In this document: positions 3,001 through 63,176 of the stretch, piece after piece | How positions within the stretch are numbered: the stretch's first letter is position 1 | Layout of the letters: each line of letters begins with the position of its first letter | DNA from: Bdellovibrio reynosensis | GTDB lineage: Bacteria; Bdellovibrionota; Bdellovibrionia; Bdellovibrionales; Bdellovibrionaceae | DNA length: 64,000 bases | Reading direction: 5' to 3' | Assembly: GCF_022814725.1 (NCBI RefSeq) | Contig: NZ_CP093442.1 | Location: forward strand, 124,001 to 188,000 | Translations under genes and position numbers: made by a program | Notes under the pieces: generated by a model | What the model saw: the letters and a program-made list of their open reading frames with translations, nothing else | What the model was told of the DNA's origin: nothing | The model's database searches: none

Positions 3001-4610
3001 GAGTTGACACTTAAGGTTACGGTTAAACTGATGGTGTCTGTCTGATTGGCGTTGATGATAACTGTTCCCGTAGGTGCCACGGTGTCTTTTGTGTAAACGG
3101 GTGAGGTTACAGAGGTGCTTGTTCCAAATGAATTGCTGATTGTGGCTGTCAGCTGAAAATTTCCTTGAGGTACAGGCGTTAAGTTAAGAATCGCCGTGAA
3201 GGAGCTTCCAAGACAAGTGGCTGTGCCGGTGAATCCACCGGGCCCAGTAAATGTAATAGATTGGTTGTTCTCAGAGCAGGTTCCACCAACTGTGAAACTA
3301 GCGACATTACTTAAGTTCACATATGCGCCCGCAGCAGGCGTAGTGAAGGCAATCGTGGGTGGTGTGCTAATCGAAATATCATCACTTATACATAAGGACT
3401 CATTTCCATTCACATCCTTAAATTTCGCATAGACAGTATTTACACCATTTGCACTAGGTAAGGTCCACGCCAAACTATTAACGTAAGATTGCCAAGTCCC
3501 CCCAGCTGTACATCCCGGCGTATTTGTTAAATACATCTCTGTAGCTTCAGCAACATTCATTGACAAAATTGAATTGACGGAAGCTGTAGCAACATCTCCA
3601 TTATTAATTAAGAATGATGTTACAGTGGGTGGAGATATATCGAGCGTAACCGAGGCCGTGTCTGTTTCGACGTTCTCAACTGCATCTTTGTGAGTCGCCA
3701 TTATGTTCACAGGACTTACAGTAGTACCTGAAATATCGAGCACTTTTGTGAAAGCCCCGCCAGAACAAGTCGCTGTTTCAGAAACAGCGCCAACACTTAT
3801 TATCACCGACTTCCCATCTTCAGAACAGGTGCCGCTAACAGCATAGGATGAATGATTAAGTAAGTTTATAGGTGTGGAAGAGGTGATAGCTACTAAGGGT
3901 ATCACGATATCTTTATAAATGGTAAGACTGTATTCTTTCGCTTGCGCTGAGGGCGGTGTTACTTTGAAAATAAGATTGCCGCTATAAATAGGGGCTAACG
4001 AAGATAAATCAATAGACTGTGACCAATTTTCAGTTCCACAATTAAATGATGTAAAGCTTGCTGAATTTGGTAGTGCAACTTCTATCTGGGAACCAACCAC
4101 GCACTTGCCACTAAATCCTGCAGCAGAATAGTTGCTTGAATTAATGAAGCCATTTGCAGGACCATGAACAGTGAATCCTGCTTTATAAGTGATAGGATTT
4201 GAACAATTCGAAGCGGACGAGATTCCATTTTTATCTAAAGAAAAAACTTTAAATGAATATTGGGTGCCATCGGTTTTGGTAAAGCTTGCAACATTTGTTT
4301 TTTGGTCTGGGCTTAACTTTACACTTGGTAGAATGGGTTCATCACAAGTGGGTCCCTTATAATACAGTAGTTCCTGTTCAACAACTTTTTCTGAATCTGC
4401 AGGAGTCCATTCAGCTTTAAGTTCGCCATTATCAAAAGCATCTTGATTCCAAATTAATGAAGCAGCGCCTTGTTCGGAACTTATTAGCGCAATGTCTAAA
4501 GAACAGCCACTCAAAATGCAAAACGATATGCCAGTCAAAAAATGAATGCCTTTAGTTAGCAAGCTAACAAACTTTATAGATGAGTGTTTATAATAGGCAG
4601 CTTTGTTCAT
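1..4610 (-). CDS. giant RCC1/Ig-repeat lipoprotein, 3' end off the window
   Basis: The reading frame from ATG 4610 stays open to the left edge, where it still reads a C-W-G-N RCC1 core, so at least 1536 codons are visible and the C-terminus lies outside. The N-terminus has a hydrophobic stretch ending in lipobox LSGC, followed by many Ig-like modules recurring in the form 'T-C-S-E-x-G' and 'AxEMYLTNTPGC'. The last visible ~450 codons contain at least seven RCC1-type blades marked by K/Y/F-CWG cores (near 25, 173, 349, 500, 645, 793 and 951). Expected to be an outer-membrane or surface-anchored lipoprotein with a beta-propeller head; the ligand is unknown. It is a paralogue of the next gene (4820-9622). 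An in-frame ATG at 4646 lies 5 nt past a FliA-like -10, so translation could begin there; 4610 gives a more ordinary signal peptide and has AGGA just upstream. Confidence 0.85.
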   Translation of the reverse strand, partial: MNKAAYYKHSSIKFVSLLTKGIHFLTGISFCILSGCSLDIALISSEQGAASLIWNQDAFDNGELKAEWTPADSEKVVEQELLYYKGPTCDEPILPSVKLSPDQKTNVASFTKTDGTQYSFKVFSLDKNGISSASNCSNPITYKAGFTVHGPANGFINSSNYSAAGFSGKCVVGSQIEVALPNSASFTSFNCGTENWSQSIDLSSLAPIYSGNLIFKVTPPSAQAKEYSLTIYKDIVIPLVAITSSTPINLLNHSSYAVSGTCSEDGKSVIISVGAVSETATCSGGAFTKVLDISGTTVSPVNIMATHKDAVENVETDTASVTLDISPPTVTSFLINNGDVATASVNSILSMNVAEATEMYLTNTPGCTAGGTWQSYVNSLAWTLPSANGVNTVYAKFKDVNGNESLCISDDISISTPPTIAFTTPAAGAYVNLSNVASFTVGGTCSENNQSITFTGPGGFTGTATCLGSSFTAILNLTPVPQGNFQLTATISNSFGTSTSVTSPVYTKDTVAPTGTVIINANQTDTISLTVTLSVNSIVGSQIYITNTPGCAADGTWVTANFLSKSWTLNTPDAVNTVFVKYKDAAGNETPCYSDSISHSSVVPTVSLSSPVSGSYINIATGTSVTLSGGCSEEGKNVTISISTFSALTAVCTAGSWSKTFNFSAKADQTYSVNITHSRSTGVNATPVTASYIKDTTAPTITGFSINNGTAVTSSQNATLNVTSHTGTETYVTNNALCLTGGTWEPVSFPKAWTLPTLNSTNTVYIKLRDAAGNESSCVSDFIIHDNTVPTLSITEPPAGTFINQYSAASFDVKGTCSAHGQIIYGVVTGEPSVGTSAAYCTGGYFTLHFNVSSLSDTSTTPYDFELSLTAANGNSVNTTSYYYMDATLPSAVSISGAPSGTNNSTGLNVTVSSATASFYKYFLIPPGGTGSCAISSAYIGTKYPVSTPITDLLTETGNYTLCVVGIDDHDNWSTAATTASWTRDAIKSTLSGAPTGVVTTTALNISVAGTNVTQYKYAIISTGGCATASFVGPVAVGSNITDNISALPNGPVKVCVIGGDASNNWQEVSVATETSWIKDSIVTLNISSAAVNRVSEGDTKTITFSMSGSKTFDVTAYFKITGDATSTEHNLTSGSITIPAGSTTANLPVNFLVNAATTGETLMNVHLTHTDSPAVLLDPKYQAQYFIRDSQKDLTTISLAINFYHACAVLDDNSLRCWGHSGVNLSRLGLGNTVGFADTAKTVAPGISFKSVTAGRDHTCALTTSGYVYCWGENLSNQIGDGTTARRTTPVLIDSSTTYTSISSGQAHTCGITTEQKLKCWGSADSYQTGLNTTSSAQTPTQVTSADFKFVSANSKTTCAIDTNDKLFCWGRNATGTVGDGTLIVKQVPTAIDSSNTYLMVAVGSGHSCGIISDGTLKCWGNNSQGQLGDNTLVTKTSPTVINSAVKYSWVTVNDDTTTDTNRGFSCGITDGGVLHCWGNNAGKQLADGTTTNRKIPTIADSGESYSRVYAVSQKACGITTAGAVKCWGNLYKDN

Positions 4611-44722: not shown

Positions 44723-44799
<77 letters not shown>

Positions 44800-56861: not shown

Positions 56862-58223
56862 ATGAGCTCAAAAAAAATAGATCCGGCGATCAAGACTATT
56901 CTGCACCCTAAAAAGTATGGAGTCTGGTGTTTAAGTGTAGAGTTCGAGGGTGATGATCTTAAAAAACTCAATGACGTGTTGGGCAGTGGCGATCGATACT
57001 ACCTCTACTATTCAGGAAAAGTAGCGCACTCTATTCGAAATAGATATGGATCGCCGAATGATATGGGTACTGATGGGCCACCGACTCGATTTATCGGTCT
57101 TTTGTCGCTGTTCAATACACTATTGAAGACCGGAAAAAAGGATTTTTCAGAACTGTTTGTTTTTGAATCGTCGAGAGAAGAGCGTGCACGTTTCGGAAGG
57201 TATAGTTATTTTCATCATTTAATGCAGAGCGGTCCTAAGTCGACAGCTAAGAGAAAAAATGAATTTTTAAAAGCTGCTGGCGAGTTTAGAAAATCATTTA
57301 CACAGGTGCGGCTTTCGTTAGTTCCCGATAATAGCTCAAAATTGGATTTTTTTGATATGGGCAATGGTGCTTATATGCAAATCTCAGAAGAGCAAAACGG
57401 AACATTTAAGTTCTGCGCCTTTGACATTGATGTATTGCAAAAAGTTGAGCGGATATTTAACTCGTTCAATAGTTTGCGACCCAAAAGAGTCGATAAATAC
57501 AAAATATTTAGCCCTGACGATAGTTTGATGGAAATGTTTTTTCCTGTTCTAGATTCAATGCCGGGATCACTATCTACTGATAAAAAAACTTTAAGAAATT
57601 TCAATCAGATCACTTCAGAAATAAGAGAGAATCGATTTGTTCATTCAATAAGAGTAACTGGGATTGCTGTTGAAGAATTAATGGTAGAAATCTTTGAATC
57701 ATTTTTTAGGGAAAAGGCGCCAGAAATTCCGCTAGGGAGCTTAATGGGCGAGTTTAGTAAACGGTTGGGAAAAGATGGCGAAAGGAAAAACAGCCGCATA
57801 AAATCTTATATCAATGAGCTTGATAACATTTTGGAAATCGAGAAAGGAAAAAAAGATGTGAATAACAGTGTTGTCCATATCGGTTTTACCTTAAAAAGTT
57901 TAGCGAATGAAATCGAAAAATCATTTGAAAATATTAAAACACAGGTTGGCGATAACAAATCAAATAGGATCATACTTTTTCCGAGCAATATAAATCATGC
58001 TCTAAATGAGTTTTTACCACTCAGAAATCGGGTTTCTCATCGTGTCGATAGAGCAGTAGCGGTTTCCACGATTGGGTATGTCGACGCAATTATTGCTCTA
58101 AGATGTCTCTTCATGCTTTCCCACTGGTGGGAAAACGAGAGAAAATTGCTTAATTATTCTTCAGACGCGCAGACCTTACTGAATGAGACATGCAAAAGAT
58201 CTTCTGTTGAAGTTGATACGTAA
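56862..58223 (+). CDS. unknown protein with HEPN-like C-terminal domain
   Basis: 453 aa, no signal peptide. The N-terminal ~230 residues match nothing I know ('KYGVWCLSVEFEGDD', 'DMGTDGPPTRFIGLLSL'). The C-terminal ~200 residues are helical and contain 'LPLRNRVSH' (about residues 385-393), an R-X4-H motif of the HEPN ribonuclease superfamily, in a helix followed by a second amphipathic helix ending 'FMLSHWW'. HEPN proteins often act as RNA-cutting effectors in defence or toxin systems. Placed next to a defence island; 44 nt before the DUF4238 gene on the same strand. Function is inference. Confidence 0.7.
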   Translation: MSSKKIDPAIKTILHPKKYGVWCLSVEFEGDDLKKLNDVLGSGDRYYLYYSGKVAHSIRNRYGSPNDMGTDGPPTRFIGLLSLFNTLLKTGKKDFSELFVFESSREERARFGRYSYFHHLMQSGPKSTAKRKNEFLKAAGEFRKSFTQVRLSLVPDNSSKLDFFDMGNGAYMQISEEQNGTFKFCAFDIDVLQKVERIFNSFNSLRPKRVDKYKIFSPDDSLMEMFFPVLDSMPGSLSTDKKTLRNFNQITSEIRENRFVHSIRVTGIAVEELMVEIFESFFREKAPEIPLGSLMGEFSKRLGKDGERKNSRIKSYINELDNILEIEKGKKDVNNSVVHIGFTLKSLANEIEKSFENIKTQVGDNKSNRIILFPSNINHALNEFLPLRNRVSHRVDRAVAVSTIGYVDAIIALRCLFMLSHWWENERKLLNYSSDAQTLLNETCKRSSVEVDT

Positions 58224-58267
58224 CTAAGTGGTTCTACTGCAGACAATTTGCGCTGAAGGGGGCTCAA

Positions 58268-59323
58268 TTGACAGGTAAGAAAAAGCAGCATTACGTGCCG
58301 CAGTTTTATCTAAAGAATTTCGGTAAAGGTAACGGAATTTTTGTTTTCGATAAACAATCCAAAATAGTCTATGGATCTAACGTATCAGATGTCGCGCAGG
58401 AGCGATACTTCTATGCGATTCCGAACGAAAGAGGTGAGTCTGGTGGGAAACACAGCAATCTAGAACTAATTAACTCCGTAGAAGATTATTTGTCGGAAAT
58501 AGATCATCGAAGCAACCGTGCAATTGCCAGTCTTCTGCGGAATATTGAATCTTCTCGTGTTATCTCGAGGTCGGGCTTTCCCACTTATTCACTATCTGAA
58601 AATGACCGTATCAACTTGTCCGTCTTCATTGTGTTTCAAGATTTACGAACTAGAGAGTTTCGCGAAAAAATTGCCCAAATGGAATATTTTTTCACAAAGA
58701 CAATTATGAAGAGAGTCATTGAATTTAAGCATCCCGACAAGAAGAAATATTTGGAAAAGATGGATATTTACATACATGAATATCGAGAAATACTCCGTCA
58801 TTTAAGTTTGATAACCGACCATGGTTTTATAAATAAGCTAGTTAATTTTGCTCTCAGCAAGCACTGGGTTATTGGTTATAATCAAACTGAAATTCCATTG
58901 ATTACTTCTGATCATCCAGTCGTGATGCGAAGCCATAATGACCATCCTTGGTTAAGGTCAGCAGCTTGGGGTGTTCCGAAAACCGAAATTTTAATTCCAT
59001 TAAGTCCGAAAGTAAGTTTGATGTTGATGTGTAAAAGTTTTTTTAATGATTCACACGGGAGCGTTTTAGCTGAACAACATACAGAAAATAGAGTAGTTCC
59101 GTTAAACAAGGATAATATCATCTACAATAATCACCTGCAGATTACGGGTTCCTATCAAAGACTATTTTCAAATACTGACGAGTTTTATTTAGCTGAAGAT
59201 ATTTTAGCGGAAGAGCCTAAATATTCTAATCCCAACAGAAAAAGGGTGGTCGCATCAGAAAAATCTAATCTTCCATCCAATTGGGCAGTACGCCATAAGA
59301 TTAACGGCAACGAAATTCCGTAG
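58268..59323 (+). CDS. DUF4238 protein
   Basis: 351 aa from TTG 58268, preceded by AAGGGGG. The N-terminus 'KKQHYVPQFYLKNFG' (residues 4-18) is the DUF4238 hallmark, and 'PLITSDHPVVMRS' and 'ILIPLSPKVSLMLMC' in the C-terminal half are also family-like. Biochemical function unknown; the conserved His/Asp pattern could be a nuclease-type site. Likely co-transcribed with the HEPN-like gene, so the pair may work together. Confidence 0.82.
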   Translation: MTGKKKQHYVPQFYLKNFGKGNGIFVFDKQSKIVYGSNVSDVAQERYFYAIPNERGESGGKHSNLELINSVEDYLSEIDHRSNRAIASLLRNIESSRVISRSGFPTYSLSENDRINLSVFIVFQDLRTREFREKIAQMEYFFTKTIMKRVIEFKHPDKKKYLEKMDIYIHEYREILRHLSLITDHGFINKLVNFALSKHWVIGYNQTEIPLITSDHPVVMRSHNDHPWLRSAAWGVPKTEILIPLSPKVSLMLMCKSFFNDSHGSVLAEQHTENRVVPLNKDNIIYNNHLQITGSYQRLFSNTDEFYLAEDILAEEPKYSNPNRKRVVASEKSNLPSNWAVRHKINGNEIP

Positions 59324-59337
59324 ATTGGTGATTATAG

Positions 59338-59458
59338 CACTTCGAGTTGTCGGTCAATTTGATGGAGGTCTTGGCATAAGCTTCCTATTTTATGGGAACC
59401 TCGTGCACAACAGCCCATCGGCATGCTGGGAGCTAGGGTAACTACAGTCTGTCATCAA
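59338..59458 (+). pseudogene. decayed C-terminal fragment of a TonB-dependent receptor
   Basis: Aligns to the end of the receptor gene at 63033-63160. Shared blocks include TGTCGGTCAATT, GGTCTTGG, GTGCACAACAGCCCA and AACTACAGTCTGTCAT, in the same order and at nearly the same spacing. Translation would give 'VGQFDGGLGIS..VHNSPS..' but frames are broken. No 5' part of the gene remains. Confidence 0.75.
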
Positions 59459-59507
59459 TCGGCGTTCCTCATAAAATTTATACCCCACTGTTCCGCGCCT
59501 TGCCGCA

Positions 59508-59553
59508 ATGCATCCCCCTCGATTTGTGCTCTAGTTACCAAGCGGGGGATGTA
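59508..59553 (+). promoter_or_regulatory. upstream ORF overlapping an RBS-hiding hairpin
   Basis: Arms TGCATCCCCC (59509-59518) and GGGGGATGTA (59544-59553) pair over 10 bp with one G-T; the 3' arm holds the GGGGGA ribosome-binding site and touches the ATG at 59554. An eight-codon ORF (ATG 59508 to TAG 59534, peptide MHPPRFVL) overlaps the 5' arm, so a ribosome on it would open the stem. Confidence 0.5.
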
Positions 59554-60828
59554 ATGACTAAAAAAAGCAACTCAAAAGCAAAATGTCCAAGCACCAAAGC
59601 CATTCACGGAAAGACTCAATCCGGTTCTTGGGAATTTTCTCATCACCTCATCCCACCGATGACTGCTTCCACTACTTTTCGCTTAGGTTCATTAGAGCGG
59701 GGAGCGCAAGGATTTAGTACTTTTGGCTCTTCCACAGAAGCTCCGATCTATATTTACGACCGTCTTGAAGAACCTAATACCAAAATGCTTGAAGACCAAA
59801 TAGCCATGATGGAAGGCGGTGAAGCCGCAGTCGCCTTCGGAAGTGGTATGGGCGCTATTGCTTCAACACTTATGACTTTGCTTAAAGCCGGTGATCAGGT
59901 AGTTGCGCATAAAACTTTGTATGGTTGCACCTATAGCTTAATCACAAATTGGTTACCGCGCTTAAGCGTGCAAAACCAGTTGATCGATATTCAAGATCTT
60001 AAGGCACTGCAAACTCATTTAGAAAATCCCACAACGCGCGTTCTTTATTTTGAAACAGTTTCTAATCCCATTTTAGAAGTGGCTGACTTAGAAAAAATCG
60101 TGAAGCTTGTTCAAACAGCCAATAAAAAAAGAGCGAAGGATCGTAAGATCTATACAGTCGTTGATAACACATTCCCAACCCCGTGGGCTTTACGTCCGAT
60201 GGAGTGGGGGATTGATTTTGTCATTCAAAGCTTAACCAAAAATATTTCTGGCTTCGGAACAGAAATGGGTGGCGCAGTAGTGACACCATTAGAGTTTGAA
60301 CCCTCTTTACGTGTAGCAAGAAAAGATTTCGGCGCGATCATGCATCCGTATTCAGCTTGGCATATTTTGGTTTACGGTATTACGACACAAGCGGTGCGCT
60401 TTGAACAACAACAAGAAAATGCTTTAAAGATCGCAAACTTCTTAGAAAAGCATCCTAAAGTTGAAAAGGTGCTTTACCCAGGGCTTAAATCCCATCCGCA
60501 ATATAAGCTTGCAAGAAAATATCTGCGTTCACCCAACGGAGATTTTGCCCCAGGCACGATGATTTCATTTCAGCTTAAAGGCAGCATGAAAACCTGTCAG
60601 AAATTTGTCGATGACGTTGCTAAAAATTCTTACGCTATCACTCTCGCTGTGAGTTTAGGTTTAACTAAGACACTTATTGAAGTGCCAGGCTTTATGACCC
60701 ACTCTGCAATCCCTGATAGCAAAAAAGGGGAGAGCGGCATTGATCCTAAAGCCATTCGCTTAAGTATTGGCTTAGAGGCCGCAGACGATATCATTGAAGA
60801 TCTTAAAGCCTCTTTAGCCCGAGTATAA
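59554..60828 (+). CDS. Cys/Met-metabolism PLP-dependent enzyme, methionine gamma-lyase-like
   Basis: 424 aa from ATG 59554; the frame extends to TTG 59500 but that part overlaps the regulatory hairpin. Fold type I PLP enzyme of the cystathionine gamma-lyase/methionine gamma-lyase family: 'YDRLEEPNTKMLEDQIAMMEGGEAAVAFGSGMGAI', 'TLYGCTY', 'VVDNTFPTPWALRP', and the PLP-binding Lys at about residue 228 in 'QSLTKNISGFG'. The end reads 'IRLSIGLEAADDIIEDL'. The Cys seen in 'TLYGCTY' is the position that favours methionine gamma-lyase; cystathionine synthase or O-acylhomoserine sulfhydrylase remain possible. Confidence 0.9.
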   Translation: MTKKSNSKAKCPSTKAIHGKTQSGSWEFSHHLIPPMTASTTFRLGSLERGAQGFSTFGSSTEAPIYIYDRLEEPNTKMLEDQIAMMEGGEAAVAFGSGMGAIASTLMTLLKAGDQVVAHKTLYGCTYSLITNWLPRLSVQNQLIDIQDLKALQTHLENPTTRVLYFETVSNPILEVADLEKIVKLVQTANKKRAKDRKIYTVVDNTFPTPWALRPMEWGIDFVIQSLTKNISGFGTEMGGAVVTPLEFEPSLRVARKDFGAIMHPYSAWHILVYGITTQAVRFEQQQENALKIANFLEKHPKVEKVLYPGLKSHPQYKLARKYLRSPNGDFAPGTMISFQLKGSMKTCQKFVDDVAKNSYAITLAVSLGLTKTLIEVPGFMTHSAIPDSKKGESGIDPKAIRLSIGLEAADDIIEDLKASLARV

Positions 60829-61026: not shown

Positions 61027-63176
61027 GTCTTAAGTCTTTATCTCTAATTTTATTATTGTCCTTTAGCCAATCCACCTTTGCCCAAGAAACCACCGGCGAA
61101 AGCCGCATCAGCGAAAGATCTTATCTTTTAGATACGATCCAAGTCTCAGAAGAAAAAGAAGACGATAAAGAAAAAGCTTATAACTCGATTAACTCTGAAA
61201 CAGTCATCCCAAAGGCCGCTTTGACTAAAGGAAATCCAAGAGATGTAAGTGAACTTCTGCAAAAAGCCCCAGGCGTAAGTGTCAGTGGTGGCGCAGAACT
61301 ACAAAACAAAAAAATCTCCATCCGGGGTTTAGATGGCTTCAGAGTTATCCAACAAGTCGACGGAGCCCAGCGCTTAGAGGCGACCCAACAAGGTATGTCT
61401 TCTGGGGTTGCAGTAGAAACAGAAATGCTTTCTGAAATCGCCGTACAAAATGGCGCAGACTCAGTAAGCTCTATCAATGGTGCAATCGGCGGAACCATTC
61501 AATATAAAACCATCACGCCTGAAGATATCTTAATCGGTAAAGAAGAGATCTCAACAAAAGTAAAAGTAGCGGGTGATTCGGCAACTGAAGGCCAAGCGAC
61601 TTCGCTTCACACCGCAGCTAAGCTTGATAAATCATCATCAGCGCTTTTTGGTGTGACTGTTAGAAATAGCAACAAAGTTGAATCAGGATCACCAAATGAA
61701 ACCGGTGACTCTAGACAAAGTGAAGAAATTAAAGCCAATAGAAATACGTTCCTTGGTAAATACGTCCGTAAAACGGGAACGGTGAAAACAGATGTGAAAG
61801 CAGAGTTTTCTGATTCCCAGACAAAGAACGCGGCTTATTCAGCGGGCTTTGGTGAATCAAACTCTGATTACCGCAGTACTACTTTTGAAACAGTTCTTAA
61901 CCACGAACACAGTCTTAATTCGAACTTTAAATACGAATTCCTTTCTTACTACAATAAAACGGAATCCATTAAAGACACGCACACTGCCTTTCGAGGCATG
62001 AAATCAACTTTGGGTAAAACCGATGACCGCCTAGAAAACACCGGAGCAAAACTTGCGGGCGTATCGCTATTACCGATTAACTCAGATCTTTTATTCCAAA
62101 CAAAATACGGAATCGAAGGTATCGGTAGCAGAATTTCAGAAGACGATGGCACCAACAGCCCTTACTTTGGTAAATCCCAAGGTTATGACGCTGGAGTATT
62201 CACCGAAAATAGCCTAAGCATCAACGAAGACAAAGTCGTGGTTATGGCAGGAGCCCGCTATAGCAAATATCACCGTGAATCAGATAAACTTGCTTTAGAA
62301 GCACCAAGTAAAGATGACGACACATTATCAACCATGGTGGGTGTCTCTTACGCGCCTGCTGAGTGGGTAAAAATCTCTGGCAAGTACGGCGTTTCTAATC
62401 GCGCACCAAACGTGCGTGAAATGTACATGGGAACAGGTGTGGCGTGGAAATGTCATCGCCCCGCTAAAGACTGCACAAGTGTACCCAATGCCAAATTAAA
62501 CGAAGAACAAGCATTCTCTAAAGAAGCTTCGATTCTATTTAAAACACCAGAAACCGTTGAACCAAAACGTCTTAAAGTGACCTACTTTGATGAAACGATC
62601 AGCGACTACATCGAATACATGCCAGAGATGTACCGCTTAGAAAACGGCGCACGAGTTAAAGCCGGCCCTAAAAACGCCACCCACCGTGAATACCAATACC
62701 GCAACCTTTCAAAAGTCTTACGCCATGGTGCCGAAGCCCAAGCCCAAATGGATTACGGCAACTGGGAATTTGAAACAATGTATTCCATGATCCGCATGGA
62801 TTGCATTGATTGCCCGGATATGTACACGGCAACCACGATCTCTGAGCCATTAGTTTCAGCTCCCGCTGATAAGTTCGGCGTTGCAGCAGGCTATGAGTTT
62901 AAATCCATCAACCTGGAAGTAGGTGCTGACGCACAGTTTGTAAGTGCTCAAAGAAACCTTTCTGAAAGATATCTGTTGGCTGGTTACGGCACACCATCAT
63001 ACGATGTGTACGGTTTAAATATGCGTTGGTCACCTCGAGTTCGAGATGTCGGTCAATTCGACGTGGGTCTTGGAATCAGCAACCTATTTGATAGAAAGTA
63101 CGTCGTGCACAACAGCCCAAGCGGTACGTTTGAGTTAGGACGCAACTACAGTCTGTCATTAGCGACCATCTTCTAA
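61023..63176 (+). CDS. TonB-dependent outer-membrane receptor
   Basis: 717 aa; signal peptide ends 'QSTFA' (residue ~20). Plug domain residues ~60-165 ('DVSELLQKAPGVSVSGGAELQNKKISIRGLDG', 'VQNGADSVSSINGAIGGTIQY') then a 22-strand-type barrel ending with the expected aromatic 'YSLSLATIF'. The segment 'CHRPAKDCTS' near residue 480 and 'CIDCPD' near 600 give cysteine pairs in loops. Imports a metal-chelate such as heme or siderophore using TonB energy; the ligand is not predictable. Begins with GTG. First gene of a three-gene operon. Confidence 0.94.
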   Translation: MSLKSLSLILLLSFSQSTFAQETTGESRISERSYLLDTIQVSEEKEDDKEKAYNSINSETVIPKAALTKGNPRDVSELLQKAPGVSVSGGAELQNKKISIRGLDGFRVIQQVDGAQRLEATQQGMSSGVAVETEMLSEIAVQNGADSVSSINGAIGGTIQYKTITPEDILIGKEEISTKVKVAGDSATEGQATSLHTAAKLDKSSSALFGVTVRNSNKVESGSPNETGDSRQSEEIKANRNTFLGKYVRKTGTVKTDVKAEFSDSQTKNAAYSAGFGESNSDYRSTTFETVLNHEHSLNSNFKYEFLSYYNKTESIKDTHTAFRGMKSTLGKTDDRLENTGAKLAGVSLLPINSDLLFQTKYGIEGIGSRISEDDGTNSPYFGKSQGYDAGVFTENSLSINEDKVVVMAGARYSKYHRESDKLALEAPSKDDDTLSTMVGVSYAPAEWVKISGKYGVSNRAPNVREMYMGTGVAWKCHRPAKDCTSVPNAKLNEEQAFSKEASILFKTPETVEPKRLKVTYFDETISDYIEYMPEMYRLENGARVKAGPKNATHREYQYRNLSKVLRHGAEAQAQMDYGNWEFETMYSMIRMDCIDCPDMYTATTISEPLVSAPADKFGVAAGYEFKSINLEVGADAQFVSAQRNLSERYLLAGYGTPSYDVYGLNMRWSPRVRDVGQFDVGLGISNLFDRKYVVHNSPSGTFELGRNYSLSLATIF

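Follow-up and report, generated by a model that had tools for sequence, protein, structure and literature searches.

The extended −10 promoters read by σ70 have the consensus TRTGnTATAAT. For the genus Bdellovibrio, a published start-site map covers attack-phase promoters only, and it gives TTAAG-N16-CCGATA for the FliA promoters of B. bacteriovorus (PMC3627812). A Ptac-based inducible system is described as functional in B. bacteriovorus in a second report (PMC12448681), which we count in favor of the promoter reading developed below. The locus studied here lies in a 64,000-nucleotide stretch of DNA (the window), which comes from a Bdellovibrio genome of 3.58 Mb in a single contig and which carries, at 59554–60828 on the + strand, the gene for a PLP enzyme of 424 amino acids. 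The product belongs to the Cys/Met metabolism family (PF01053, 363.7 bits) and is methionine γ-lyase-like: its best solved relatives are methionine γ-lyases, and its top NCBIfam match is the methionine γ-lyase family TIGR01328, with 338.8 bits against a curated cutoff of 549.7, which is not reached. The gene was found in 23 of 24 genomes of the genus (E ≤ 1e-100), and 22 genus orthologs with upstream sequence (L003–L024, the window being L003) were compared. In 15 of these 22 there is a start at the window gene's distance (−48) from a conserved IHG, and the window protein lies on a comparatively long branch (0.38) of the protein tree. Two genes at 56862–59323 precede it in the window, one encoding a DUF4238 protein and the other a protein that matches neither Pfam nor NCBIfam. 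The stretch between them and the PLP gene includes 59335–59460, which resembles 63050–63175 and appears to be a degenerate copy of the 3′-terminal part of a TonB-dependent haem receptor gene that is located downstream of the PLP gene (81% likeness over about 55 nt; the wider span was judged by eye). It is as if the PLP gene had formerly been placed between two copies of this receptor gene.

Direct reading of the sequence confirmed the layout given in the first-pass annotation, namely a 10-bp stem over the ribosome-binding site region of the PLP gene and a tiny upstream ORF (uORF) overlapping that stem. The 5′ arm TGCATCCCCC (59509–59518, + strand) pairs with the 3′ arm GGGGGATGTA (59544–59553, + strand), which contains the Shine-Dalgarno (SD)-like GGGGGA and directly precedes the ATG at 59554; nine of the pairs are Watson-Crick and one is G-U, and the loop measures 25 nt. 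The uORF (59508–59534, + strand) reads ATG CAT CCC CCT CGA TTT GTG CTC TAG, encodes MHPPRFVL, overlaps the 5′ arm and stops in the loop. A 61-nt fold containing the stem has an energy of −19.2 kcal/mol (z −2.0, with 7 of 200 shuffles equally good), and for two longer stretches that include it the z-values were only −0.6 and −0.2. With the criteria of 10 bp or more, no more than one G-U pair and a loop of 3–40 nt, the + strand of the window contains 32 distinct helices, whereas 8 Markov-1 random sequences averaged 17.75. The single 10-bp stem of the window is thus real, yet by itself it is ordinary and no evidence when taken alone. The exact stem was absent from the other 19 orthologs that carry the conserved element described next.

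What the orthologs do share is a bipartite element around the position of the stem's loop, CTTYCC-N5-YTAGAAYN-TRTGCTCTA[GT]T, which is present in 20 of the 22. Its core is found as exact TGTGCTCTA in 18 orthologs and with a one-base difference in two (L009, L021), and it is absent from two (L017, L023). When the 20 element-bearing sequences were aligned on the first base of the motif, CTTYCC occupied columns −19 to −14, YTAGAAY columns −8 to −2 and TRTGCTCTA[GT]T columns 0 to +10, the columns beyond −19 to +11 being weakly conserved. The spacing is fixed: the bases C, T and T at −19, −18 and −17 are kept in 18, 19 and 16 of the 20 sequences, respectively, and the start codon always lies 29–49 nt downstream of the first base of the motif. 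In the window the motif is TGTGCTCTAGT (59525–59535, + strand), which sits within the loop of the stem and across the stop codon of the uORF, and which could serve either as an extended −10 (TGC TCTAGT, hexamer at 59530–59535) or as a loop motif in RNA. The other parts of the element have decayed in this copy (59506–59523, + strand), with CAATGC at the site of CTTYCC (59506–59511) and CTCGAT at that of TAGAAY (59518–59523). Exact TAGAANNTGTGCTCTAGT had 8 matches in 24 genus genomes, all 8 ahead of the PLP gene. A sequence-only model of the element (R1), used on 66 genomes of the family with strict filters and with up to 100 candidates per genome scored, gave 20 matches at E ≤ 0.0122, every one ahead of the PLP gene, the next having an E-value of 0.039; since R1 was built from the 20 element sequences, these matches arise by construction, and what is informative is that no others were found. 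Among the genomes in which R1 had no match are G005, with no PLP gene at the threshold, G016, where the gene runs into a contig end, and G022, the genome of L017. Outside the genus, 11 family genomes contained the PLP gene at E ≤ 1e-90, and in the 9 of these loci that were examined (L149–L157) exact TGTGCTCTA was absent from the 220 nt before the anchor. By eye, one of these loci (L152) shows a loosely similar CTCTAGT upstream of the PLP gene. The genes upstream of the PLP gene in three relatives, presumably SfsA-, HutD- and GDPD-like, differ from one another and from those in the window, and because of this the element and the PLP gene look like a unit that travels together. Judged by these comparisons, the conserved feature of the locus is a cis element of one gene that is kept at the nucleotide level, and not the uORF. 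About eleven bases retained by 20 of 22 Bdellovibrio orthologs while most of their surroundings change make a sharper target than the uORF model. No account of this element was found among the titles and abstracts listed by literature searches.

The conserved element may well be the PLP gene's own promoter core, the likeliest of the readings considered, which we regard as evenly poised between true and false. The core would consist of the extended −10 TRTGC TCTA[GT]T together with the −35-like TTYCCA located 17 nt upstream, and a dedicated regulator may also read the element, which we propose because the element is unusually invariant. Transcription would then start about 7 nt past the −10, near 59542 in the window, and give a leader of about 12 nt. 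With such a start, the 5′ arm and the uORF would belong to the promoter and lie outside the mRNA; the predicted start would be downstream of 59518, which the annotation itself had named as the finding that speaks against its model. In 15 of the 20 orthologs, a scan with σ70 weights placed the best match within the element in a single register, with a TT-initial hexamer, a 17-nt spacer and TG-C-TCTA[GT]T; these orthologs are related sequences and not 15 independent results. The window, L016, L019, L021 and L022 fell outside this register. The score of the element was reached by a fraction of 0.05 or less of the shuffles in only 2 of the 20 (L006, L015), the same proportion as for the stretch upstream of the element (L003, L006). 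That longer stretch held the higher score in 7 of the 20, at scattered places, and the C at the second base of the candidate −10 is a poor fit to σ70. Within the genus we nevertheless favor a promoter because the spacing is fixed and because the element travels with the gene. The locus L028 leaves no room for another intergenic promoter: its upstream gene ends at 2943, CTTYCC begins about 2 nt after that stop, and the ATG of the PLP gene is at 3001. For L017 and L023, which have the PLP gene and lack the motif, a replacement promoter was sought and the best scores were no better than those of shuffles. The best σ70-like site of the window, CTGTCA-17-TAAAAT (59449–59477, + strand), has 9 of 12 consensus matches, with 0.01 of the shuffles as good, and transcription in the window itself could use either of the two promoters. 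A housekeeping promoter with many copies was considered and rejected; in the window's own genome TGTGCTCTA occurs 13 times and the reversed control pattern 5 times. By eye, three of the other 12 occurrences look like tRNA, and a further one (L114) falls within a region that resembles a leader. In the latter case, around position 1500 on the − strand, TGTGCTCTA overlaps a CTCTAGCAT/ATGCTAGAG hairpin shortly ahead of the ATG of a gene that, from its first residues, we take to resemble rpoN. If the element of the PLP gene is indeed a promoter, it would be a precise, testable site at which a predatory bacterium controls a sulfur amino acid gene.

The model of the first-pass annotation, in which the position of a ribosome on the uORF exposes or hides the ribosome-binding site, was not supported by the comparison and appears highly improbable to us. 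The uORF and the stem do overlap as described, and one comparative result favors translation: the frame of GTG CTC, the last sense codons of the uORF, which lie within the conserved motif, runs without a stop through 10 or more codons ahead of CTTYCC in all 20 orthologs; its open length averages 27 codons, compared to 14 and 20 for the other two frames, whose shortest value is 1. Start, stop and peptide are, however, not conserved. An in-frame ATG is absent from 8 of the 20 element-bearing orthologs and the other ATGs are found at scattered positions, while the end codons are GTG CTC TAG in 13, GTG CTC TAT in 5 and ATG CTC TAG in 2. Nucleotides are conserved rather than codons: no synonymous change at GTG or CTC was seen in the 20 orthologs, and, averaged across the ten codons that span −20 to +9, column information was about 1.17, 1.22 and 1.36 bits for codon positions 1, 2 and 3, averages in which columns 2–8 are fixed by the sequence selection. 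Third positions are therefore the most conserved, which is the reverse of a coding pattern. For the same reason a conserved leader peptide was rejected, the frame reading like S-S-Q-x-L-E-x-V-L in several species but with fixed third and variable first positions. By eye, the uORF has no run of regulatory codons and no SD-like sequence ahead of it. A different use of the same bases, as an operator of the form TAGA-N8-TCTA bound by a repressor or activator with the true promoter elsewhere, seems improbable, if less so. The complete dyad is present in 16 of the 20 copies of the element as counted by eye, but its right half is invariant and its left half variable, unlike in a plain dyad; in addition, the R1 search found a single strong site per genome, and no regulator gene common to the three listed neighbourhoods was seen by eye. 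A hairpin formed by the motif itself (CUAGA/UCUAG) was also rejected, since by eye the changes in the left half break the pairing without compensation.

A further alternative keeps the stem in the mRNA: transcription would start upstream, a stem between the pyrimidine-rich stretch and the SD region would hide the ribosome-binding site, and a ligand, a protein or a small RNA would read the invariant loop motif TGTGCTCTAGTT and open or lock the stem. We consider this somewhat unlikely, although the pairing data offer it some encouragement. Transcription from the site at 59449–59477 would give a long transcript in the window and would place the stem inside the mRNA. Lineage-specific helices across the SD region recur among the orthologs, the best of them measuring 10 bp (window), 9 bp (L010 and L005/L006), 8 bp (L004/L024 and L015) and 7 bp (L007). 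When the 27 nt to the left of the motif were paired with the motif-to-ATG stretch of the same ortholog and compared with stretches swapped between species, own pairing was stronger (−12.25 versus −10.05 kcal/mol; p = 0.0016 and 0.001 in two runs on one set of 11 lineages). The median p-value was 0.0095 (0.0005–0.035) over 40 random representative sets and p was 0.003 for all 20 orthologs; among the controls, 21 other left windows and 15 coding windows, the most extreme z-value was −1.83 compared to −3.1 for the tested left window. Because the window had been chosen for its stem, the swaps were also made without it, and this reduced the effect to p = 0.010 for one set and to a median of 0.051 (range 0.013–0.155) over 40 sets. 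For the CTTYCC core alone, p was 0.015 with the window, 0.051 without it and 0.23 for all 20 orthologs. Moreover, the best arm covering the SD has no constant position: counted from the motif, its 5′ end moves between −13 and −27, so that pairing fails to explain the fixed CTTYCC, and in L013, L014, L018 and L020 between 13 and 19 SD regions of other orthologs pair better than their own. In three of these orthologs (L014, L018, L020) an alternative hairpin folds between the motif and the ATG, with 9 bp over the SD region (GATCCCCAT/GTGGGGATC in L018), and by eye its pairs are kept although the three species differ at several positions. Matches of Rfam families to the element did not rise above chance level. 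At the gathering score, a scan of the whole window returned only a tRNA at 44723; at E ≤ 10, the region 59300–59700 gave four matches that scored far under gathering, and two of these, SIB_RNA (E 7.1) and one on the minus strand (E 5.6), overlap the stem; seven relatives gave eight matches, none near the mid-locus element and one above gathering. The latter is a TPP riboswitch (L175, 43–144, − strand) near the PLP locus of G020. A SAM-II-like riboswitch, suggested by the likeness of loop and tail, was dropped, there being no Rfam match in its support. The earlier interpretation is partly supported: recurrent SD helices and own-arm pairing weakly support the claim that the ribosome-binding site is hidden, the pairing effect being smaller once the window is left out. 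The most specific form of this alternative, a single-gene RNA switch particular to the genus Bdellovibrio, in which drifting yet pairing arms hide the SD sequence and the invariant loop responds to a small RNA or to a metabolite of sulfur amino acids and thereby tunes the methionine γ-lyase-like enzyme, is a doubtful proposal; it would represent a leader class absent from Rfam 15.

Compared with described systems, the locus resembles leader-peptide attenuators in having a short uORF that overlaps a stem, but differs from them in that the peptide, the start and the stop of its uORF are not conserved. It resembles SD-sequestering leaders and translational riboswitches such as SAM-II or SAM-V in its conserved loop and in that many of the species have a stem over the SD sequence of this sulfur amino acid gene; unlike these, its arms vary in sequence and register, Rfam returned no match above chance, and no second gene with the motif was found in the R1 search. 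The FliA promoters of B. bacteriovorus come from the same genus but differ from the element in sequence. Extended −10 σ70 promoters differ from it in the −10 hexamer, which here is TCTAGT or TCTATT with C as the second base and is almost invariant compared to that of ordinary promoters; in likeness to them, the element has TRTG before the −10, a TT-initial −35-like hexamer with a 17-nt spacer in 15 of 20 orthologs, and a distance of 18–38 nt from the −10 to the start codon.
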